Positions 14,017 through 23,817 of a stretch of DNA of 64,000 nucleotides are shown here, in pieces. The DNA comes from Pseudodesulfovibrio sp. (lineage in GTDB: Bacteria; Desulfobacterota; Desulfovibrionia; Desulfovibrionales; Desulfovibrionaceae), in the NCBI GenBank assembly GCA_016744135.1, contig JADGEX010000002.1:62001-126000 (forward strand). The letters run 5' to 3'. The first letter of the stretch is position 1; every line of letters starts with the position of its first letter. The position numbers and the translations under genes are program-made. The notes under the pieces were generated by a model. The model saw only the letters and a program-made list of their open reading frames with translations, did not search any database and had not been told where the DNA came from.

Positions 14017-14098
<82 letters not shown>

Positions 14099-14195: not shown

Positions 14196-15200
14196 TCATG
14201 CTGTTTTTACCTCCAATACTTTGAGGTGGCCCCTCACTGAATCCAAGCCGCGTACATATCGCTCGGTGATTCTCAGGTTCTTATGTCTGAGTGTGTCCCG
14301 GATTGCGACCATGGGTACGTCATGTTTGGCGAGTATTGAGGCTGTTAGCCCTCGGATGCCATGGCAACCAAACCGTTTCACCTCTGCTTTGTCGCATAAG
14401 GCTTGGGGGAATCCCCGGTTCTCTGTGTATGGCTTTCCTTTGTGTTGACCTTTGGGCTGAATGAACACCCACTCATTAACCGCCGCTTTGTGGTGATCTC
14501 TGAGAGTGTCGGTCAATTCCTCGGTCATAGGTATCCAGTCGGATTCCAGCGAACCGCCTTTCCTCTTTCTTGTCTTGAGGCAGATTCTTTGATTGATGAA
14601 ATCCACGTCCTCCCATTGGAGTCTGTATATTTCACCGCGTCTGCCTGCTGTGTGGAGGAAGGTCAGGAGCATTATTTTGTCTTGGCCCTCGGCAACGCCA
14701 AGAACCTTTCTAAAATCGCCTTCTGATGGAACGTAGTGGCCTTTCTCATCGGCAGGGAATTTGTCTACCAGTTCAAAAGGGTTTGGCTTGGGCATGTCGA
14801 GATAACGGATTCCCCAGTTCCAAGCGGCAACAAGGTTCTTTCGATCTCTGTTGACCGCGTTGCCTGTCCTCTTGTCGAACTCCTTTTGTAGAAATTCAAG
14901 GGCAAGGCGGGGTGTCATCTTATCTGCCTTTGCTGATGGTTTGGTGAAGTGGAAAAAACGCCGGAAGGCCCCGCGTTTTTCACTGTACACTTTAGGTGAG
15001 AATCTTGTTGAGTAGTCTAAATATTGTTCGGCCCATTTAAGTAAGGATGGAGTGGCGGTCAGGTCTCCCGCACTGTGCATTTCTGCTTCCCATGTCTTCG
15101 CATCCTTCTTGGTGTCGAATATCTTTTCCTTGCGTCGTCCGTTTATCATTACCGAACCGACCCAACGCTTCTCCCCGTTCTTTGTCTTTCTGTAGGGCAT
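14196..15200 (-). CDS. int: Tyrosine recombinase (phage-type integrase)
   Basis: The protein has 334 residues. An arm-binding N-terminus covers residues 1-50, a SAM-like core-binding domain residues 50-140 and a catalytic domain residues 155-325. The catalytic set is complete: Arg187 in TAGRRGE, His280 and Arg283 in CHGIRG, His306 in LRHKNL and Tyr315 in ITERYVRG. It integrates and, with an excisionase, excises the island at tRNA-Asp. The start at 15200 has GAGGG 6 nt upstream and lies inside the upstream excisionase-like gene. Confidence 0.93.
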   Translation of the reverse strand: MPYRKTKNGEKRWVGSVMINGRRKEKIFDTKKDAKTWEAEMHSAGDLTATPSLLKWAEQYLDYSTRFSPKVYSEKRGAFRRFFHFTKPSAKADKMTPRLALEFLQKEFDKRTGNAVNRDRKNLVAAWNWGIRYLDMPKPNPFELVDKFPADEKGHYVPSEGDFRKVLGVAEGQDKIMLLTFLHTAGRRGEIYRLQWEDVDFINQRICLKTRKRKGGSLESDWIPMTEELTDTLRDHHKAAVNEWVFIQPKGQHKGKPYTENRGFPQALCDKAEVKRFGCHGIRGLTASILAKHDVPMVAIRDTLRHKNLRITERYVRGLDSVRGHLKVLEVKTA

Positions 15201-15372
15201 ATGTTTCCCTCACTGCTTCGCAAGTCAATTTTTCAAAGAACAGGATACGGCGGCCAATGCGCACTCCACCGTACCTGTGGGGATAGCGTGTCACTGTGCT
15301 TTCTTCAACCTCGAAGATGTTTGCTATGGTTTTAGATGAGAGTTTGGTTCCTAGGTCGTGAATTTGTTCCAT
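15037..15372 (-). CDS. Excisionase-like helix-turn-helix protein overlapping int
   Basis: Residues 10-60 show an excisionase/MerR-type winged helix: SSKTIANIFEVEESTVTRY then GGVRIGRRILFFEKL. A GGAG site lies 7 nt before the ATG. The frame continues 164 nt into the integrase gene; the residues encoded there (from about 58) look like a shadow of the integrase frame, so the functional part is probably the first 60 residues. Its position immediately before int fits a directionality factor coupled to it by translation. The alternative is a transcriptional regulator of int. Confidence 0.65.
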   Translation of the reverse strand: MEQIHDLGTKLSSKTIANIFEVEESTVTRYPHRYGGVRIGRRILFFEKLTCEAVRETYALQKDKERGEALGRFGNDKRTTQGKDIRHQEGCEDMGSRNAQCGRPDRHSILT

Positions 15373-15443: not shown

Positions 15444-15937
15444 TTAAGCGTGAATGATTGTCGGGCCAGAGTCTTCTATGTAGTTGCCTGAGGTCGCAGC
15501 GCGGTTGGCAAGCCTATCAACTCGCTCGTTCATTGCGTTGCCGTTATGCCCCTTTACCCAGACCCACTCTATGTCATGCTGATCTATTGCTGATCTATTG
15601 CTGATAGGAGCTCATTCCAGAGGTCGGTGTTTTTTACTCGCTTTTTGGCTGAGCTCTTCCATCCGTTCGCCTCCCACTTGGTGAGCCACCCTTTATTAAA
15701 TGCGTCACAGATGTATGTGGAGTCAGAGTGGAGAACTATTTTTGCTGGCCTCTTGACCTTCAACAAGGCAGCGATCACGGCTCTTAACTCCATACGATTG
15801 TTGGTTGTGTTTTTGTACCCCTGTGAGATTTCGACTTTGTGGTTATCTTTCATGAGGATAGCTCCAAGTCCTCCTTTGTTGTTCGTGTGCTGGTTTCCTT
15901 TGCAAGAGCCGTCCGTGTAGATGTGAATTTTAGTCAT
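15444..15937 (-). pseudogene. rnhA: Ribonuclease HI, frameshifted by an 11-bp tandem duplication
   Basis: The start at 15937 (MTKIHIYTDGSC) has a good AAGGAG site. The first 118 residues contain three of the four catalytic acidic residues (Asp in IYTDGSCKGN, Glu in NRMELRAV, Asp in LHSDSTYI). A duplicated 11-bp unit then puts a stop at 15584. Removing one copy restores the frame: the continuation reads [12 protein letters not shown] then [12 protein letters not shown], the classic RNase HI C-terminus with the last Asp and the catalytic-loop His, ending at 15444. The restored protein would be 160 residues, the normal size. As written, the enzyme should be inactive or weak. Reversion by loss of one repeat unit is possible. 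Confidence 0.88.
15579..15600. repeat. 11-bp tandem duplication inside rnhA
   Basis: Two exact head-to-tail copies of CTGATCTATTG (15579-15589, 15590-15600) are followed by a partial third (CTGAT). One copy gives an intact RNase HI frame; two give a premature stop. Confidence 0.92.
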
Positions 15938-16345
15938 AGAATACTCCTTCGGTTGAGGTTGTAGGGCGTAGTTGCATATAAGAAACCCCTCCATGATGCA
16001 TCACAGAGGGGGGAAAGAGGGTATGGGGGACTATGTATACCTACAAAGGGTTGGACACCCTCTTGCAAGTACATGTTGATTTTATCTAGTCCGCAGGAGT
16101 GGTAGGGGGGGAACACATGTACTAGTCCATAGGGGTAACCTGTAGTATTTCCCAGACACTTTTGCTGGCTTGTCTGATGGTAACCACGTCAAATGGTCTT
16201 ATCTTCGGGAGGGCGTCCTATTTCAATAAGTGCTAGTTTTGATTGAGCTATTCTTTAAGTGGTTGTTTTTCAAGGTTTTTCTCTAGCATACTGTTTTTTA
16301 TTGGTTTTTATATTGTTGGCTAGATTTAAATCTCACCAGAGTTGG
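15938..16345. other. Non-coding stretch inside the island
   Basis: No convincing gene. It contains a hairpin with CCCCTC and GAGGGG arms near 15986-16011 and an 8-bp inverted repeat AAGAGGGT / ACCCTCTT (16015-16022, 16057-16064). These may be terminators or recombination sites for the nearby serine recombinase. The segment near 16240-16330 is A/T-rich. Confidence 0.5.
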
Positions 16346-17041
16346 CTAGGCCAATCGTTTTAAAAGTCGGGCTACGCTGGTTGGATGCCATTTCCCACCA
16401 CGCGGTGTATTGATTCCACGGGCTGTTAATTCATTGGTGATGCCTCGAATTGATGTGATGCCGTTATTTCGAATGTCCTCGACAACATCCGATAAGTCTT
16501 CCGCTCTGTTCTGGGCATCCCGTTTGATTTGCTCAACCGCCTCAGCATTGCCATGATCTTTAATGTATATGGCTCCATGAGGGTTGCCGAGTTTTACGCC
16601 ACGTTCTTTCGCGGCTGCAAGGGCAGCTTTAGTGCGTTGAGAAATCATTTTCCGCTCTTGTTGGGCCATGACAGCCATGATTTGGATGGTCATTTCATTT
16701 GCCTCAGGCATATCGGCACAAATGAAGTTCACGCGGCTGTCTTGGAGTTCCAAAAGGAAACGGGCGTTTCTACTCAGGCGGTCAAGTTTTGCGATGATGA
16801 GCGTGGCTCCCGTCACTTTGCAGTGTTTGAGGGCTTTTCGTAGCTTGGGGCGATCATCACGTTTGCCGCTCTCGGCCTCTACGTACTCATCAAGAAGCTC
16901 GTTATCACCTCCATTGAGGTAAGACCTCACAGCGGTGCGTTGCGCTTCGATACCGAGGCCGCTACGAGCCTGCTTTCCTGTACTGACCCTGAGATAAGAA
17001 ATAAATCTACCCGTCACGGCCTTAATCCTTGTGTGTTGCAA
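16346..17041 (-). CDS. Serine recombinase (resolvase/invertase family)
   Basis: The protein has 231 residues. The catalytic domain (residues 10-150) has the nucleophilic Ser in YLRVSTGKQ, the conserved LDRLSRN motif and the helix region MAQQERKMISQRTKAAL. The C-terminal 45 residues (GITNELTARGINTPRGG then WHPTSVARLL) are the helix-turn-helix. The start is TTG at 17041 with AAGG 9 nt upstream; a GTG at 17017 is an alternative. It could resolve multimers or invert DNA within the island. No target site is identified. Confidence 0.9.
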   Translation of the reverse strand: MQHTRIKAVTGRFISYLRVSTGKQARSGLGIEAQRTAVRSYLNGGDNELLDEYVEAESGKRDDRPKLRKALKHCKVTGATLIIAKLDRLSRNARFLLELQDSRVNFICADMPEANEMTIQIMAVMAQQERKMISQRTKAALAAAKERGVKLGNPHGAIYIKDHGNAEAVEQIKRDAQNRAEDLSDVVEDIRNNGITSIRGITNELTARGINTPRGGKWHPTSVARLLKRLA

Positions 17042-17142
17042 ATAGTTAAACCTTGACTTAGCAATTTGTGTACACTAAGGAAGCATTAATGACAAGCCTC
17101 TATGTGCTGTCCAAAACGCAAGTGAAGGAGTTCGGTGCTGAC

Positions 17143-17676
17143 ATGTTAAAAGCGATTTTTACTCTGCTTGGTGTCCTGTTGCTTTGTTCGTCGGTTGGCG
17201 CAAGTCCGAAGATGTTTGAATTCAAGGGGAGGCCAATATCACCAAAGATCATCCAAGACTTTTTGCCATGGATTAGTGATAGCAAGCCTTCTATCTTGAG
17301 CACCGATTTAGATACTGCCGTTGGTTCCAATCGGTATTTTGATGGGGATGATGTATTGGGCAAGAGCGGAGAGATCGCTACTGAGGATGGCGATGGCAAC
17401 AGCTTCGCATACAGATGCTTGGGGACACTAGAAGGAGGCGTTGCGGTACTGAGGACTTATGAGGGAGGTTCGGGGTCAGGCGTGTTTCAGAGTTTGGTCT
17501 TTGTGAAGCAGGAAGAAGGCACCGTCTATTCGCAAGCAGGGGAGAAGTTGTTTCATACTATTTTAAGATGCCTCTGGGTCTATGAGCTTGGGGATAGAAG
17601 TCTGAAAGAAGTTAGAGTGTCGGGGAAGCAGATTCGGATTGGTGAATACGATTTTCCAGTTCCGTTTGCACAATAA
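17143..17676 (+). CDS. Small secreted protein of unknown function (island cargo)
   Basis: The start at 17143 gives 177 residues opening with a clear signal peptide (MLKAIFTLLGVLLLCSSVGA), with GAAGGAG 12 nt upstream; a longer frame begins at 17068 but would bury the signal. The mature part has a Gly/Ser-rich turn (TYEGGSGSG) and two cysteines (YRCLG and LRCLW). No domain is recognised. It is divergent from the serine recombinase gene and convergent with the STAND NTPase gene. It is plausibly a periplasmic cargo protein. Confidence 0.65.
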   Translation: MLKAIFTLLGVLLLCSSVGASPKMFEFKGRPISPKIIQDFLPWISDSKPSILSTDLDTAVGSNRYFDGDDVLGKSGEIATEDGDGNSFAYRCLGTLEGGVAVLRTYEGGSGSGVFQSLVFVKQEEGTVYSQAGEKLFHTILRCLWVYELGDRSLKEVRVSGKQIRIGEYDFPVPFAQ

Positions 17677-17786: not shown

Positions 17787-20390
17787 CTAGTTGTTTTGGC
17801 TGCGATAGTAATCAATGTCCATTAAACGTCTGCTAAAAGCGCTTTGATCTGCATGGGGAAGATTGATCTTAGCATAAATGCAAATCTCTTCTCCCTTGTC
17901 GAAATCTTGCACACGGATGGACACTTCGACGAGCTGTCGCAGAGCTGAAATTACATTCATGCGGACTTCGGCTTCAATCTTAGTTACGTCTACATCCTGA
18001 ATAAATTGGTAGTATGCATTGCCTTCAGAAAGGATATCAAAGAATCTTGTCTTTTGAACGGCGCAAGCAGCCTTGAATTGGTCGTGGCTAATTTCATCAA
18101 GTCTTCTTTGGGTTTTGGACTGTTTTCGTTCATCTATCCAGAATAATGATTTGTAAAGTATCAGAAGTGAGAAGACGTCCACGCATATGAGGTCGTCAGT
18201 ACTCAGTTGAGCTTGTGAGTCAGAGAAGTGATCCTCAATCAGTCTAATTGCTTTTGACTTGTGCTCTTTGCCGCCAGCAGACCAACACAAGCTTGCAAAC
18301 AGTTTGATGAATCGATTGTCCAGTCTAAACGTGTCATAGTAAGAGTCGCATAGTTCTATTGCTTCCAGTCTCTTGCCTCGGTCGTTGGCATAGTAGTTGA
18401 CTGCATTGAGGATTGCTTTAAAGCGTATGCTGGAAGGTGCGGTTTCGCGGTTTAGGACATAACTATATTGCTCTATGACACTGTCTTCAGTTTCAGTGTA
18501 TCGAGAGGAGTCCGCACTTCTTAGTAAAGCCTCATCGATCTCGAATGAGTTGTCAGAACCCACCCTTCCAATGTTTCTTAAAACTGTTTTCCGGAAAGTT
18601 TTTGCTAGGTCGTCAAAGGACGACTTCATTATTTGGAAAATCTCTTTCGAGTATACTTTGAAGAACTTTCCGTCGATTTCAACAATTCTGAGCTTCTCCA
18701 AATCAGCTAAGGCTGTTTGAAATTTCTCCCCGTCTTTGTCCATATCAACAACATAGGCGAGTTTCGCAACCAAGTTGGAAAGTTCCTCTTCAGCAACTAA
18801 TTGGCTAATTGCCCCAAAGATTTTTCGAGAGTTTAAAGAGAGATAGTCAAATATTCTGCCATATAGGAAGTCGATTGCTGCTTCAGAGTTTTTAAGGTCT
18901 TTATCAACTATTCTGTCGATGTTTCCATTTTGCATCCACAGATATGCAAATTGAAATATGAAGATTGGCCTTCCACTTGTGATACAGTGAATAGGCTTAC
19001 TAAGCTTTTTGTCGGAAATGGTTTCAACATATGGTTTAATGTTCTTGATTTTGCCCTCATTCGTGAGGACTTCGTACAGAAATTCTAGGGTCTTTTTTTG
19101 ATCTAATTCGTTGGTGCGTATCTCTTCACCAATTACAGTGTTTGATCGAGTTGTTATTATAATTTTGTGCCGATCAATATCTAGTTTTCTGGTAAATCCC
19201 TCAATTAAAGCCCTCTCGTCAGGTGGGAAGGTTTCGAAGTCATCAATAATTATGAGAGTTTTTCCCTCGTAGTTTATGATTTTATTCTGGTCTGCAGAGA
19301 CTTCCTCGTGGATTACAGAATTGGTTTCCTCGATAATGTCATTAAATGTTCTTGCTGAAGGCTCATTGTCTACTACTTCACCACTATAATAGTTGTAGTA
19401 TCTGTCCTTCGCACTGTAAAAAACAATGTAGTCAAAGTACTTTTTGTTGACCGATAGGTCCTCACAGATACTTTGCACTGAGGCTGTTTTTCCAACTCCT
19501 CCGTGCCCCCATATGGTGGCACTCGCAGATGCTCTATTCTTTGTTAGGAATTTTTTGATTTGCTTCTTAACACCAGTGTCGATGTATTTTTTATAATTGT
19601 TATTGAAGTCATTGATGATGGTTGAATTCTCAGTTCGCTTTCTCCTGCCATCTGACTCGATTGTAATGTTGGTTAACTCAGGCCAAGTGGCGTAACACTC
19701 GCCAGTCTTTACCAATTGGTTGTATTGTATTTTGCCGATCAGCTTCTCTTTAATGCTCCTATACATATAGACACTGTCTTCGTCACAGATGTGTATAAAA
19801 GGAGAAAGCCTGTGAAGTGGGCCGTCATTTAGCCGCAGATATAAGTTGTTGGCTTTCCCATCGGTAGCATGAGAAGGGCAACTGTAATATTCATATCCGT
19901 TTCCATCATAGTTATATATTGTCCCTTGGAGTATCCCATCCTCTTCTTTCTCAATGAAAATCATATCGTATTTGCTCTTCAGCGCATCACTGCTTGCGTT
20001 GATGTCGTCTATGATCTCATTGTATTTATCAACAACAGTAGTAGTCGCATCCTCATATGTGAATCCATGTCCAAGTATGTTGTTTCTAAAGCTAGGGTAT
20101 TCATTGATTCTTTTCGAGATTTTTCTTTTCCCAAAGAACTCTTTATCAAGGTCAAGCATTCTAGAAATTTCAACGATTATACCAATTGAAGGAGTGGGTA
20201 TTTCTCGAAGGATGATTTCTTTGTCGTCTGGGTCGAGTTTGTCAAAATTCTTATCCCACAGATATGCCATTATGAAGATTAGCATATATTCTATTTTGGA
20301 CCTGAGATAGGTGCAAAGGATGTCTTGCTTGTGGGTCTGCTTGGCGAAGAAATTTATCTTTTGGTCGAGCTTGGAGAGGATGTAGTCCAT
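17787..20390 (-). CDS. STAND-type NTPase with HEPN-like N-terminal region (candidate defence protein)
   Basis: The protein has 867 residues and no signal peptide. The N-terminal region (1-135) is helical and contains FRNNILGHGF, an Rx5H motif (Arg102, His108) like that of HEPN ribonucleases. Residues 150-240 are a small beta-rich segment. An NB-ARC/STAND-like NTPase occupies about 270-560: Walker A GHGGVGKT (295-302), Walker B LIIIDDFE (379-386) and the sensor TTRS (413-416). The C-terminal 300 residues are helical, probably repeat-like (VNYYANDRGKRLEAIELCDSY), as in STAND sensors. STAND NTPases with nuclease effectors act in antiphage defence (Avs and related systems). Its place on a tRNA-integrated island and visibly A/T-rich composition fit that. 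HEPN assignment and defence role are inference. Confidence 0.8.
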   Translation of the reverse strand: MDYILSKLDQKINFFAKQTHKQDILCTYLRSKIEYMLIFIMAYLWDKNFDKLDPDDKEIILREIPTPSIGIIVEISRMLDLDKEFFGKRKISKRINEYPSFRNNILGHGFTYEDATTTVVDKYNEIIDDINASSDALKSKYDMIFIEKEEDGILQGTIYNYDGNGYEYYSCPSHATDGKANNLYLRLNDGPLHRLSPFIHICDEDSVYMYRSIKEKLIGKIQYNQLVKTGECYATWPELTNITIESDGRRKRTENSTIINDFNNNYKKYIDTGVKKQIKKFLTKNRASASATIWGHGGVGKTASVQSICEDLSVNKKYFDYIVFYSAKDRYYNYYSGEVVDNEPSARTFNDIIEETNSVIHEEVSADQNKIINYEGKTLIIIDDFETFPPDERALIEGFTRKLDIDRHKIIITTRSNTVIGEEIRTNELDQKKTLEFLYEVLTNEGKIKNIKPYVETISDKKLSKPIHCITSGRPIFIFQFAYLWMQNGNIDRIVDKDLKNSEAAIDFLYGRIFDYLSLNSRKIFGAISQLVAEEELSNLVAKLAYVVDMDKDGEKFQTALADLEKLRIVEIDGKFFKVYSKEIFQIMKSSFDDLAKTFRKTVLRNIGRVGSDNSFEIDEALLRSADSSRYTETEDSVIEQYSYVLNRETAPSSIRFKAILNAVNYYANDRGKRLEAIELCDSYYDTFRLDNRFIKLFASLCWSAGGKEHKSKAIRLIEDHFSDSQAQLSTDDLICVDVFSLLILYKSLFWIDERKQSKTQRRLDEISHDQFKAACAVQKTRFFDILSEGNAYYQFIQDVDVTKIEAEVRMNVISALRQLVEVSIRVQDFDKGEEICIYAKINLPHADQSAFSRRLMDIDYYRSQNN

Positions 20391-20748
20391 TTGTGATTCC
20401 TGGGAAGTGTTATGATTACCAAGTGTTGTTGGTGTTTATGAGCCTGTATGAAAGTATGTTCATTGGTTTGGTGTATACACCTAGTTTATAGTGTTTGCCA
20501 ATATTGAATGTGCAAAGTGGGACATTGTATGAAACCTCCGTATGTGGGGTGATGTAAGTCTCGATAAAGCTCGATATCGTGACAGAGGGAGGTCAGGATT
20601 TGACTTCAAGATAAAAATCAGACGACTTTGAATCTGGTTTAAAAGGGACGTAAATCGGGACGTAAATTTACCCGCAAACAGGCTTTTTGAAACTCCATAA
20701 ACCACGGTGGAATGCGGGTTAATGCGGGGAGTGCGCACGCTGCAATAT
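20391..20748. other. Region between the STAND gene and attR; holds promoter and arm sites
   Basis: No gene supported. A 12-bp palindrome GGTGTATACACC (20470-20481) lies upstream of the STAND gene and could be part of its control region. Two direct GGGACGTAAA copies sit at 20645-20654 and 20657-20666. The repeated AATGCGGG near 20711-20728 is of unknown meaning. Confidence 0.5.
20645..20666 (+). repeat. Paired GGGACGTAAA repeats (probable integrase arm sites, right)
   Basis: Two direct copies with 12-bp spacing lie about 85 bp inside attR and have the same orientation as the left pair at 14161-14181. Their presence at both ends supports integrase arm binding. Confidence 0.65.
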
Positions 20749-20799
20749 CCTGTCACGCCGGAGGCCGCGAGTTCGAGTCTCGTCGGCTCCGCCACTAAA
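20749..20799 (+). repeat. attR: 51-bp copy of the tRNA-Asp 3' end
   Basis: Identical to 14048-14098. It lacks the 5' half of the tRNA and so is not a functional gene. It marks the far boundary of the island. Confidence 0.92.
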
Positions 20800-21089: not shown

Positions 21090-23438
21090 TTAAAACTCAT
21101 ATCGTGCGATGGCGGATATGCCGTGGGAGCGGCTGTGTTGGCTGGCTTCTCCGGTATACGCTAGGCTAAATGTCGTGTTGTCTTTGCGTACCGATGCCCC
21201 TAAGCCGAGGCTGAGATGATCATCGTCATTTTCTTGTGTGATTTGAGCTGAGGTTGCGCCGAGGGTTTGGCGTACGGTGATGTCGTTACCGTTCAGATCG
21301 TGGGTCCAATTCAGTTGCGCATAAGGAGTGAAGGTGGCGGATTCTGTCTCGATGTTGCCGCTCAGACGTATGCCAACGACGCTTTCTATGAAGAGAGCAT
21401 CAAGACTGTCATAGGATACTGCATTGACGGCATCAGTTTCTGAAAAACTGCCTCGATTGAAATAACTGGTGTTGAGGCCCAGTTCCGGGGCGAGTGTCCA
21501 AGCCTCAGTTTCTATCCATCTATATGAAGCCAACAGTTGATTGCTGACAAGCTGACTGTTGTAATCTGCTTTGGCTGTTTGCCCTAGTCCTGCGTTTCGT
21601 TCGGAATCATGCTGAGCGTATGAGAAGCTCAAGGTGTCGGTGAAAGACCAATCGTTCAAGCGGTATCCACCATATGCGCCGAGTACATAGAGGCTCTGAT
21701 CCTCTGTGTCGTTTTCTGCAAAAGTGTTTCCTTTGAAGTCGATGCCGGTTGCGGCATAACCTGCAAATGCCCCTAACAGTAGGTTGTCGTTGACAAAAGT
21801 GTCTGCACCGATTTCCAGCCCGGCCATCTTGGCATCGTAACCTAGTGCGGAGCCAAAGGCATCACGCTCGCTGATACTGAACATGGGCTTTGCATATACA
21901 CCATAGCGTTTGCCTGTGGAGGGCTTGGAGATCAAATCTGTAAGCGGTCCATTTGAGGCTACCATGATATTTTTATCTTCTTTTTCGTTTTCGGCCAGAA
22001 GAGTTTGGCTACGAGCTGTGGGGATTTGGATGAAAGCCAAATTGGAAGCCAGGGTCGAGGTCATGCTCAACGCGGTGTTGTCCCATTGAGGTGTGTATGG
22101 TGTTGAGAGTTTCACATCGGTTCCATCAATGCGAGTACTGAGCGAAAAATTGGGGTTCACGCTGACAACGGAGTCGAAGTTTCCGGCGACGGAACCTGCT
22201 GCAATGATAGTTTGATCTCCAACCATATTTTTGCCATCAGCATCAACGACCAACTTACCTGCCACGGTGGCAAGTCCTATTACTGTTACAGGGGCCGTTC
22301 CATCGCCGTTAAGATTGACAGCTAACGTACTGCCTGAGGCTTGAGTATAGGTATTACCACTGAGATGCACCCCAGAATTCAGAGTCAATGTGCCATCGTC
22401 GAGAGAAAAGGCTTGTGCAGCGACATCTCGAGTTAATGCCCATGTTCCAGCTTCGGCTTTATGGAATTCGGCCCAGTTCCCGGTTATATCAAAGTTTACA
22501 GTTCCGCTGCCAACCAGATACAATGCATTGGTTCCATCCGCGTCATGAACACTTCCAGCCAGTATATTGGTCCCGGTCTTCAGATAGACTTGAGAATTCG
22601 TCTGAGCGGATATGGCTCTCTTTCCTGCGTCATATGCTGCGATGGTACCAGTATTGGTTAGAGTTGCAGAAGCGCTTATAAGAACAGCATGGTTAGTATT
22701 AATTACGGTTCCGCTGTTATTCATAATAGACCCCGCTCCCACAAAAGCCCCAAAACCCGAAGCAGTTATGGTCCCGTAGTTCGTTAAGGTAGAGTCAATC
22801 CCACTCAAAGCATACGCACTTTCTCCCTGAGTGGTGATGGTGCCCCAATTGGTCAGTGTGGAAGATGATTCTCCATGCATACCACGAATATCATCCAATC
22901 TTGTATAAATAGAACCCCTATTCTCGAGAGTGCTAGCTTCTGCCCACATGCCAGCTCCTTGTTCATTGTTGTAAATCGTCCCATAATTAATTGCGGTAGA
23001 AGCTGCTTCTGCGTACATGCAGCGATTTCGTAAGGCACCCGCCATGGTGATAGTTCCGTAATTGTATCCAGTTGACGCCACCTTCATGTGCATCCCATCT
23101 GCTTCCTCACCATAAATATTAATGCTGCCTCTATTGGTGAGTACGGAATTCGTATGGAGCGCGGCCATACCAATTTGCAAAACACCTTTCGACTTAATAT
23201 AGCCCTCAGCTGTATTGACTAAATCTTGCCCTACCCCATCAGTATACATGGCCCCCGGTACCGTAACGGCCCTCAGTATGATATTTCCAGAGTTGATCCA
23301 ATTGCCGACGAGTGGAGTTACCGTAGTGCCCGTGTGTTCAGCGGCTCTTGCTGGTGATGGGATCAGATAGAGAGTGCACAGAATCACTGCTGCAAAACAC
23401 AAGAATGCAAGTGAACGATGGGGTTTCAGACATTTCAT
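21090..23438 (-). CDS. Autotransporter (type V secreted outer-membrane protein)
   Basis: The start at 23438 has a GAGGAG site and gives 782 residues; an upstream in-frame ATG is less likely. A signal peptide (ending ARAAEHTG) is followed by a passenger of about residues 45-480 with beta-helix-type repeats of the LTNYGTIT kind. The C-terminal 270 residues form an autotransporter beta-barrel (from KRYGVYAKPMFSISERD) ending in the outer-membrane signature IARYEF. The passenger is exported through the barrel and displayed or released. No protease or lipase active site is seen, so adhesion is the likeliest role. It lies between the island and a decayed tRNA fragment. Confidence 0.88.
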   Translation of the reverse strand: MKCLKPHRSLAFLCFAAVILCTLYLIPSPARAAEHTGTTVTPLVGNWINSGNIILRAVTVPGAMYTDGVGQDLVNTAEGYIKSKGVLQIGMAALHTNSVLTNRGSINIYGEEADGMHMKVASTGYNYGTITMAGALRNRCMYAEAASTAINYGTIYNNEQGAGMWAEASTLENRGSIYTRLDDIRGMHGESSSTLTNWGTITTQGESAYALSGIDSTLTNYGTITASGFGAFVGAGSIMNNSGTVINTNHAVLISASATLTNTGTIAAYDAGKRAISAQTNSQVYLKTGTNILAGSVHDADGTNALYLVGSGTVNFDITGNWAEFHKAEAGTWALTRDVAAQAFSLDDGTLTLNSGVHLSGNTYTQASGSTLAVNLNGDGTAPVTVIGLATVAGKLVVDADGKNMVGDQTIIAAGSVAGNFDSVVSVNPNFSLSTRIDGTDVKLSTPYTPQWDNTALSMTSTLASNLAFIQIPTARSQTLLAENEKEDKNIMVASNGPLTDLISKPSTGKRYGVYAKPMFSISERDAFGSALGYDAKMAGLEIGADTFVNDNLLLGAFAGYAATGIDFKGNTFAENDTEDQSLYVLGAYGGYRLNDWSFTDTLSFSYAQHDSERNAGLGQTAKADYNSQLVSNQLLASYRWIETEAWTLAPELGLNTSYFNRGSFSETDAVNAVSYDSLDALFIESVVGIRLSGNIETESATFTPYAQLNWTHDLNGNDITVRQTLGATSAQITQENDDDHLSLGLGASVRKDNTTFSLAYTGEASQHSRSHGISAIARYEF

Positions 23439-23817
23439 GGAAAACTCCTCTCGAGGGTAAAGTAGCGGGGGCGGCTGCAATGCAACAGGTCTAGATTTAC
23501 GGTCATAGATGGTCTGATTGTTTATTAAAAACTCAAACCATTGTTTCGTTATCCTATTTCGAGGAATGTGTGTGGCTTTGCAAAAAAAGAGAGTTAATTG
23601 TGTTTTTGTGCACCAGAAAACACAGTTTTATATCAAGTATGTATAGAATTATTAAGAAATGCAGAGAGGCAGGAGCTACCAAGAGGCCTGCGAGTGGTTT
23701 ACTTGGAAGAGAATTTCAATTAAATAGTTCAAAATTTCATCGTTGTAGACGGATTATTTGTGTCGTTTGACTGTTGTTTATAAGAAGAAAAGACCGTTGT
23801 CGCAGGGCCTAGTATTT
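23439..23817. other. Upstream region of the autotransporter and the next gene
   Basis: A/T-rich 379-bp stretch without a supported gene. It must hold the divergent promoters of the autotransporter (-) and of the unknown gene at 23818 (+). No operator is recognised. Confidence 0.5.

Follow-up and report, generated by a model that had tools for sequence, protein, structure and literature searches.

A stretch of 64,000 nucleotides from Pseudodesulfovibrio sp. (GCA_016744135.1, contig JADGEX010000002.1, positions 62,001-126,000), hereafter called the window, carries a gene that joins a HEPN-like N-terminal domain to a STAND NTPase and a helical C-terminal region. From its sequence and predicted structure, this HEPN-STAND gene probably encodes a single-gene, NLR-like abortive-infection protein, cargo of an integrative island and a candidate for phage defence. 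In the predicted model, its architecture resembles that of the immune receptors of animals and plants, with an N-terminus that probably cuts RNA. Positions follow the numbering of the window. Among the sequences compared, G000 is the genome of the window, G033 a congener and G366 a genome called as the same species, while L-numbers designate fetched loci.

Architecture of the protein

The original prediction had placed an 867-residue open reading frame (ORF) at 17787-20390, and both its limits proved exact. The gene is read from the minus strand; translated on the plus strand, the interval is full of stops. Arg102, His108, the Walker A motif GHGGVGKT (residues 295-302) with its Lys301 and the Walker B motif LIIIDDFE (379-386) were all recovered at the predicted residues.

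The assignment of the core to the STAND/NB-ARC class stands on several grounds. In addition to the two Walker motifs, the Pfam NB-ARC profile matches the window protein with 32.1 bits, above a cut-off of 23.5, and all members of a 16-sequence family alignment (16/16) match it at E <= 0.1. The predicted model shows a fold of NB-ARC type, next to which lie helical and winged-helix parts, and in structural comparison residues 275-440 correspond to an NB-ARC of the apoptosome and resistosome type. The C-terminal region is helical, as had been proposed, though without a Pfam TPR match in the window protein at E <= 1. An S1 RNA-binding domain occurs in three of the 16 family members and not in the window protein.

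The HEPN-like N-terminus

The Rx5H motif on which a HEPN domain had been proposed is by itself no evidence, because Rx4-6H strings are common by chance: when residues 1-140 were shuffled 20,000 times, 22.5% of the products contained one, and the protein itself has seven. Conservation is what counts. The longer motif RNxxxGHG, found in none of 20,000 shuffles, is invariant in 17/17 aligned diverse full-length sequences, the window included. The same invariance extends over R102, N103, G107, H108, G109, E34, the Walker A glycines and lysine, D383 and D384. Anantharaman et al. 2013 (PMC3710099) define HEPN motifs as Rx4-6H with a polar residue following the arginine, and R102-N103-x4-H108 has this form in all 17 sequences. 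The upstream acidic residue E34 is equally constant, yet the window protein has no Ex3[KR] at this position. A structural search with the modelled residues 1-139 returned HEPN proteins in all of its top 13 VIA rows, a match that carries caveats. A HEPN fold is thus not lacking in the model, and its presence together with the invariance of the motif supports the view of the N-terminus as a HEPN-like domain.

A protein of this build might also bind RNA or regulate without cleaving, in the manner of MalT, and use its N-terminus as an adaptor. Some HEPN domains that have lost the motif are described as potentially substrate-binding (PMC3710099), and the STANDs include regulators such as MalT (PMC10427625). 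However, the catalytic-type arginine, the polar residue after it and the histidine are invariant here, against a mean identity of 52% for the N-terminal columns of the 16-row alignment, and we consider a non-cleaving adaptor very unlikely.

The comparison of profiles says little about a HEPN ribonuclease (RNase). With hhalign, the N-terminus gave no significant score against HEPN families and none better than against unrelated helical controls; a HEPN-HEPN control failed as well. As these scores do not exceed those of unrelated controls, our confidence in an RNA-cutting defence protein was slightly lowered and that in a non-HEPN N-terminus slightly raised. The N-terminus would then be a helical bundle with a HEPN-like shape, for example an oligomerisation domain, in which RNxxxGHG is structural; in view of the motif and the fold match, we hold this to be quite unlikely. 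Further searches brought no HEPN match: among the 25 listed of 26 matching families, no Pfam HEPN family appeared for family members at E <= 0.1, the Swt1 HEPN family PF18731 had no match in the own genome, and a PDB sequence search with residues 1-139 gave just two kinase rows (E 0.22). Elsewhere, the own genome has a HepT-like HEPN gene (PF01934; contig C95, 795-1088).

Distribution and selection of the family

The family is patchy. The congener G033 has a copy of 82% identity, the sole match among 59 other genomes searched, and in a sample of 395 genomes from the phylum, the own genome alone gave a full-length match. Used alone as a query, the window protein matched nothing in species-genome contigs or viral contigs; with a protein query, a broken copy was found on a Runella plasmid. 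This copy (L004, 10001-11815) is interrupted by an in-frame stop and annotated as a shorter NB-ARC protein. A search with a three-row alignment returned 15 loci in 84,980 species genomes and three viral contigs. The match is near full length, at 31-39% identity, in 13 of the 15 genome loci and in all three viral ones; L016 (1-727) and L019, a fragment, fall short of this. A 16-row alignment returned the same viral matches from the viral contigs.

The genome scan that gave the 15 loci, of which 14 were aligned, used the peptide patterns NNYKKYI and [AG]YLW[DN][KD]N[FI]. Since these patterns differ from RNxxxGHG, the search cannot have imposed the invariance of this motif on the genome loci. HGF[TAV]YED was one of two patterns in the viral scan, so that the motif of L022 could be biased. 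The 17 aligned sequences come from Bacteroidota, Cyanobacteriota, Pseudomonadota, Bacillota, one viral contig and the two congeners. Left out were the fragment L019, the interrupted L004, L021 (its match figures equal those of L022), L023 and L036 (on one contig and with the same match as L015) and L003 (same place as L024).

Ten other host genomes had one match each at E <= 1e-20. No relative was found in an Escherichia coli collection by a DNA search with the Klebsiella-prophage gene. A phage collection held one NTPase-only protein and no further match, and a plasmid collection held one broken copy and one NTPase-only protein. ORF2 of the Pseudomonas filamentous phage PfAC11 (L005, 481-2841), whose record carries the note SeAvs3, encodes a 786-residue P-loop protein that matches the window protein in the NTPase only.

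Between the window and congener copies, the proportion of non-synonymous differences (pN) is 0.106 and that of synonymous ones (pS) 0.88; dN is 0.115 and the synonymous sites are saturated, so that dS is not estimable. Judged from these two sequences, the gene is under purifying selection. In the tree, the Leptolyngbya and Runella copies are sisters with 100/100 support, and such clustering of sequences across phyla indicates horizontal transfer.

Genomic context of the relatives

Homologues were expected to recur on mobile elements. Of 18 distinct places (the window, L004, L006-L018, L020, L022 and L024), nine lie on a plasmid or have, within the small set of neighbours examined, a gene of a mobile element or of restriction; the count is not set against a background rate, and L024 enters it without a neighbour scan. 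The window is one of the nine. L004 is on a plasmid and L015 in a prophage. The gene accompanies TraG/D at L007, an ISL3 transposase at L008, an integrase and a methylase at L010, a resolvase and a C5 methylase at L018, and a terminase at L022, and at L017 it lies between HsdR and HsdM. The relatives do not look like the non-mobile housekeeping proteins that would have spoken against a defence gene, although some do adjoin housekeeping genes. The copies at L009, L012 and L014 adjoin a TonB receptor, uvrA and a tRNA synthetase, and the remaining places show nothing telling.

Two of these loci deserve description. At L017 (7369-15109), the protein within the type I restriction locus has an S1-bearing C-terminus. 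At L010 (12766-14367), a single ORF combining an N6 methylase, a type I specificity domain and AlbA_2 adjoins both the HEPN-STAND gene and the integrase.

The island and its insertion site

The proposal of a mobile island at tRNA-Asp with integrase and resolvase is confirmed by the ARAGORN call of the tRNA, by Pfam matches of both enzymes, by flanking att repeats and by an empty site in another strain (Table 1). The att repeats, which bound an insertion of 6,701 bp, are an addition to what the original prediction had reported; its claim that structural phage genes are missing also held for the nine proteins of the window that were scanned. Up to 14105, the window and G366 agree at 99.66%, and from 20749 on at 99.60%; the 18 kb fetched from G366 contain a single repeat copy (searched with its first 46 bases, <=6 mismatches). 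This flank identity and the single repeat identify an empty site in G366. By sequence comparison, the two strains thus differ at the tRNA-Asp site: that of the window has the element, and G366 lacks it there. The G033 gene is about 110 bp away from this tRNA-Asp, and the 19.9 kb fetched around it showed no second repeat.

Table 1. Features of the island and of the HEPN-STAND protein, in window coordinates
Feature	Position	Strand	Evidence or remark
tRNA-Asp (GTC), integration site	14017..14093	+	ARAGORN
att repeat, left copy, 51 bp, 3' part of tRNA-Asp	14048..14098	+	51/51 identical to 20749-20799
Tyrosine integrase	14196..15200	-	Pfam Phage_integrase 3.7e-17; PHROG integrase 1.7e-44
Small helix-turn-helix (HTH)-like protein, probable excisionase (weak)	15037..15372	-	sub-threshold HTH match only
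Ribonuclease HI	15584..15994	-	Pfam RNase_H 1.1e-28
Serine resolvase/invertase	16346..17041	-	Pfam Resolvase 5.2e-28
Hypothetical protein, 202 aa, convergent with the HEPN-STAND gene	17068..17676	+	no family match (Pfam, PADLOC, NCBIfam, PHROGs)
HEPN-STAND protein, 867 aa	17787..20390	-	main gene; ATG at 20390
Helical repeats, putative sensor, residues 597-867	17790..18602	-	
NB-ARC/STAND NTPase, residues 270-445	19056..19583	-	
Walker B LIIIDDFE, residues 379-386	19233..19256	-	D383, D384, E386 invariant 17/17
Walker A GHGGVGKT, residues 295-302	19485..19508	-	all except V299 invariant 17/17
Mostly beta region, residues 140-262, role unassigned	19605..19973	-	secondary structure of predicted model
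Helical HEPN-like domain, residues 1-139	19974..20390	-	
R102-N103-x3-G107-H108 motif	20067..20087	-	invariant 17/17
att repeat, right copy	20749..20799	+	

An ORF of 104 residues (20481-20795, minus strand) overlaps the right att repeat, a remnant of tRNA-Asp, and is probably spurious. Just beyond the island, an autotransporter (21090-23480) is a single ORF of 796 residues in the window and two overlapping frames in G366.

Complete or partial matches to the stretch with tRNA-Val and tRNA-Asp occur in 35 of 36 genomes of the genus. Twenty sites were fetched besides those of G000 and G033, namely G366 and 19 congeners, and an integrase related to that of the window (E <= 1e-5) was present at seven of them (L041, L043, L046, L047, L048, L051 and L053). 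A relative of the small HTH-like protein stands beside the integrase in 6/7 of these sister islands. The PADLOC scan covered six of the islands with ten selected cargo ORFs; L041 was scanned with Pfam only. PADLOC-matching cargo was found in four of the six: PD-T4-7 and PDC-S10 in L046, a type II methyltransferase and DpdB in L047, Cas9 in L048, and Cas9 with Cas1 in L053. This cargo lies between two copies of the repeat in L046 and L053; in L047 and L048, no right end of the island appeared in the fetched stretch. The cargo ORFs scanned from L043 and L051 had no PADLOC match. Defence genes are thus frequent cargo of such islands, which is an association and not a proof for the HEPN-STAND gene.

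The closest sister island, L043 (930-5165), has a related integrase, HTH protein, RNase H and resolvase, and carries a protein of 427 residues (PHROG 2467, function unassigned) and others in place of HEPN-STAND. The Cas9-like genes of L048 (6705-10061) and L053 (4630-8906, with Cas1) are type II CRISPR as cargo of integrative islands. L047 (5491-8251) encodes a D12 adenine methyltransferase and a DpdB/DndB-like protein, and L041 (6154-7431) a protein with a QueC domain according to Pfam; 7-deazaguanine DNA modification is a possible function of the cargo in both.

The same surroundings would suit a module for island maintenance or the exclusion of competitors, in which a STAND-gated HEPN RNase answers the loss of the island or the arrival of rival plasmids and integrative elements rather than phages. 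The family is found in an integrative island, on a plasmid, beside a conjugative protein and in a prophage, and HEPN toxins are common in addiction pairs. However, no recognised antitoxin gene adjoins the HEPN-STAND gene, the convergent 202-residue ORF having no assignment. Moreover, the gene of G033 persists by the tRNA, and no relative of the integrase of the window was found in the fetched stretch of 19.9 kb. We regard such a module as unlikely.

Proposed mode of action

As an abortive-infection protein, the HEPN-STAND protein would sense an infection through its C-terminal helices, perhaps together with the beta region, by binding an infection-specific molecule. This molecule may be a phage protein or, in the S1-bearing relatives, RNA. 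ATP would then drive the oligomerisation of the NB-ARC core, and the N-terminal HEPN domains would pair to form composite active sites of R102, N103 and H108. The paired sites would cut RNA without metal, which would stop translation and phage replication at the expense of the cell. Characterised HEPN RNases appear to be metal-independent and to leave 2',3'-cyclic ends (PMC3710099). With an empty-site strain of the same species, relatives in four other bacterial phyla and sister islands that bear Cas9, the prediction of defence is directly testable.

Relation to known systems

The nearest precedent is a domain plan, HEPN-STAND-TPR(-S1), catalogued in 2013 with a HEPN motif that is mostly intact in its Table 1 (Anantharaman et al. 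2013, PMC3710099). The studied protein shares with this Swt1-HEPN-STAND-TPR-S1 plan the order of HEPN, STAND NTPase, helical repeats and optional C-terminal OB-fold/S1, the last being present in some family members (3/16). It differs by a HEPN-like domain that is not detectably of Swt1 type (no PF18731 match), by a beta region of about 120 residues between HEPN and NTPase, and by the lack of a Pfam TPR. The comparison with the plan, for which Npun_F6454, MED222_16016 and Desac_1927 are the named proteins, was made through this layout and through L109, a 2013-plan protein of the same phylum with a sub-cut-off HEPN_Swt1, NB-ARC and TPR. The family alignment and L109 align from the NTPase onward (columns 291-685, prob 98, E 2.3e-13), and their HEPN parts have no detectable kinship (prob 0.2). 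Since the plan is known in silico and the core is shared, but the HEPN-like domain and the beta region are distinct, the gene, by sequence and model, is a distinct family of an already predicted kind.

The system had been described as unrecognised. This holds for current models, as the window protein matched no PADLOC model at E <= 1 and, in NCBIfam, gave only two matches far below cut-off; it does not hold for the domain plan, which was listed in 2013. Our literature search, which leaves subscription journals mostly uncovered, met no experimental test of this plan. The available text on DefensePredictor reports validated HEPN and NACHT systems and names no HEPN-NACHT fusion (PMC13092281). A precedent for the proposed function is Tha, from a Staphylococcus aureus prophage, a single-protein HEPN RNase set off by a phage structural protein, a tail protein. 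It has 301 residues, a C-terminal HEPN and an Rx4H motif, unlike the studied protein, and the accessible text mentions no STAND NTPase (PMC11087260).

Structural comparison points to several other systems. Foldseek placed Avs3 in the top row at a TMq of only 0.27, followed by SAMD9 in rows 2 and 3. When the full profile was run against PDB sequences, only six rows appeared, all weak: four of PspA/Vipp1, one of ribosomal L23 and one of a wheat NLR (E 0.34). The best 50 of 691 rows from a viral fold library were mostly AAA ATPases and clamp loaders, none of them judged to represent the whole architecture. The Avs family, proposed as a possible home for the protein, unites a STAND core, an N-terminal effector and a C-terminal sensor on one chain. 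Membership was rejected as a label in view of this low TMq and of the PADLOC result, the library of which we take to include Avs models. Avs3 has about 2,000 residues against 867, and Avs effectors differ from the HEPN-like one.

Plant NLR resistosomes and the CED-4 apoptosome have other effectors and sensors, with 15-17% identity in two structural rows. In SAMD9, a STAND core is joined to an AlbA_2 effector that cleaves RNA; the human protein is eukaryotic with AlbA_2, whereas the studied protein is bacterial and HEPN-like. A protein at L108 (679-3021, minus strand) with AlbA_2 (Schlafen-type), NB-ARC and TPR has a core related to that of the HEPN-STAND family and recalls SAMD9.

A wider reading of the models, tentative and rather doubtful, would make the N-terminus a new HEPN family and the whole protein the founder of a new class of bacterial NLR encoded by one gene. 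NB-ARC assembly would switch on a HEPN RNase, the family-specific beta region and helical repeats would sense, and the members from Bacillota and Saprospiraceae would sense RNA through S1; a related core carries AlbA_2 instead, as in L108, mirroring SAMD9. The locus offers the HEPN-STAND plan predicted in 2013 in a compact one-gene version. If the proposed defence function is true, the NLR-like proteins of bacteria would gain an RNA-cutting effector arm beside AlbA_2 and the SAMD9-type proteins.
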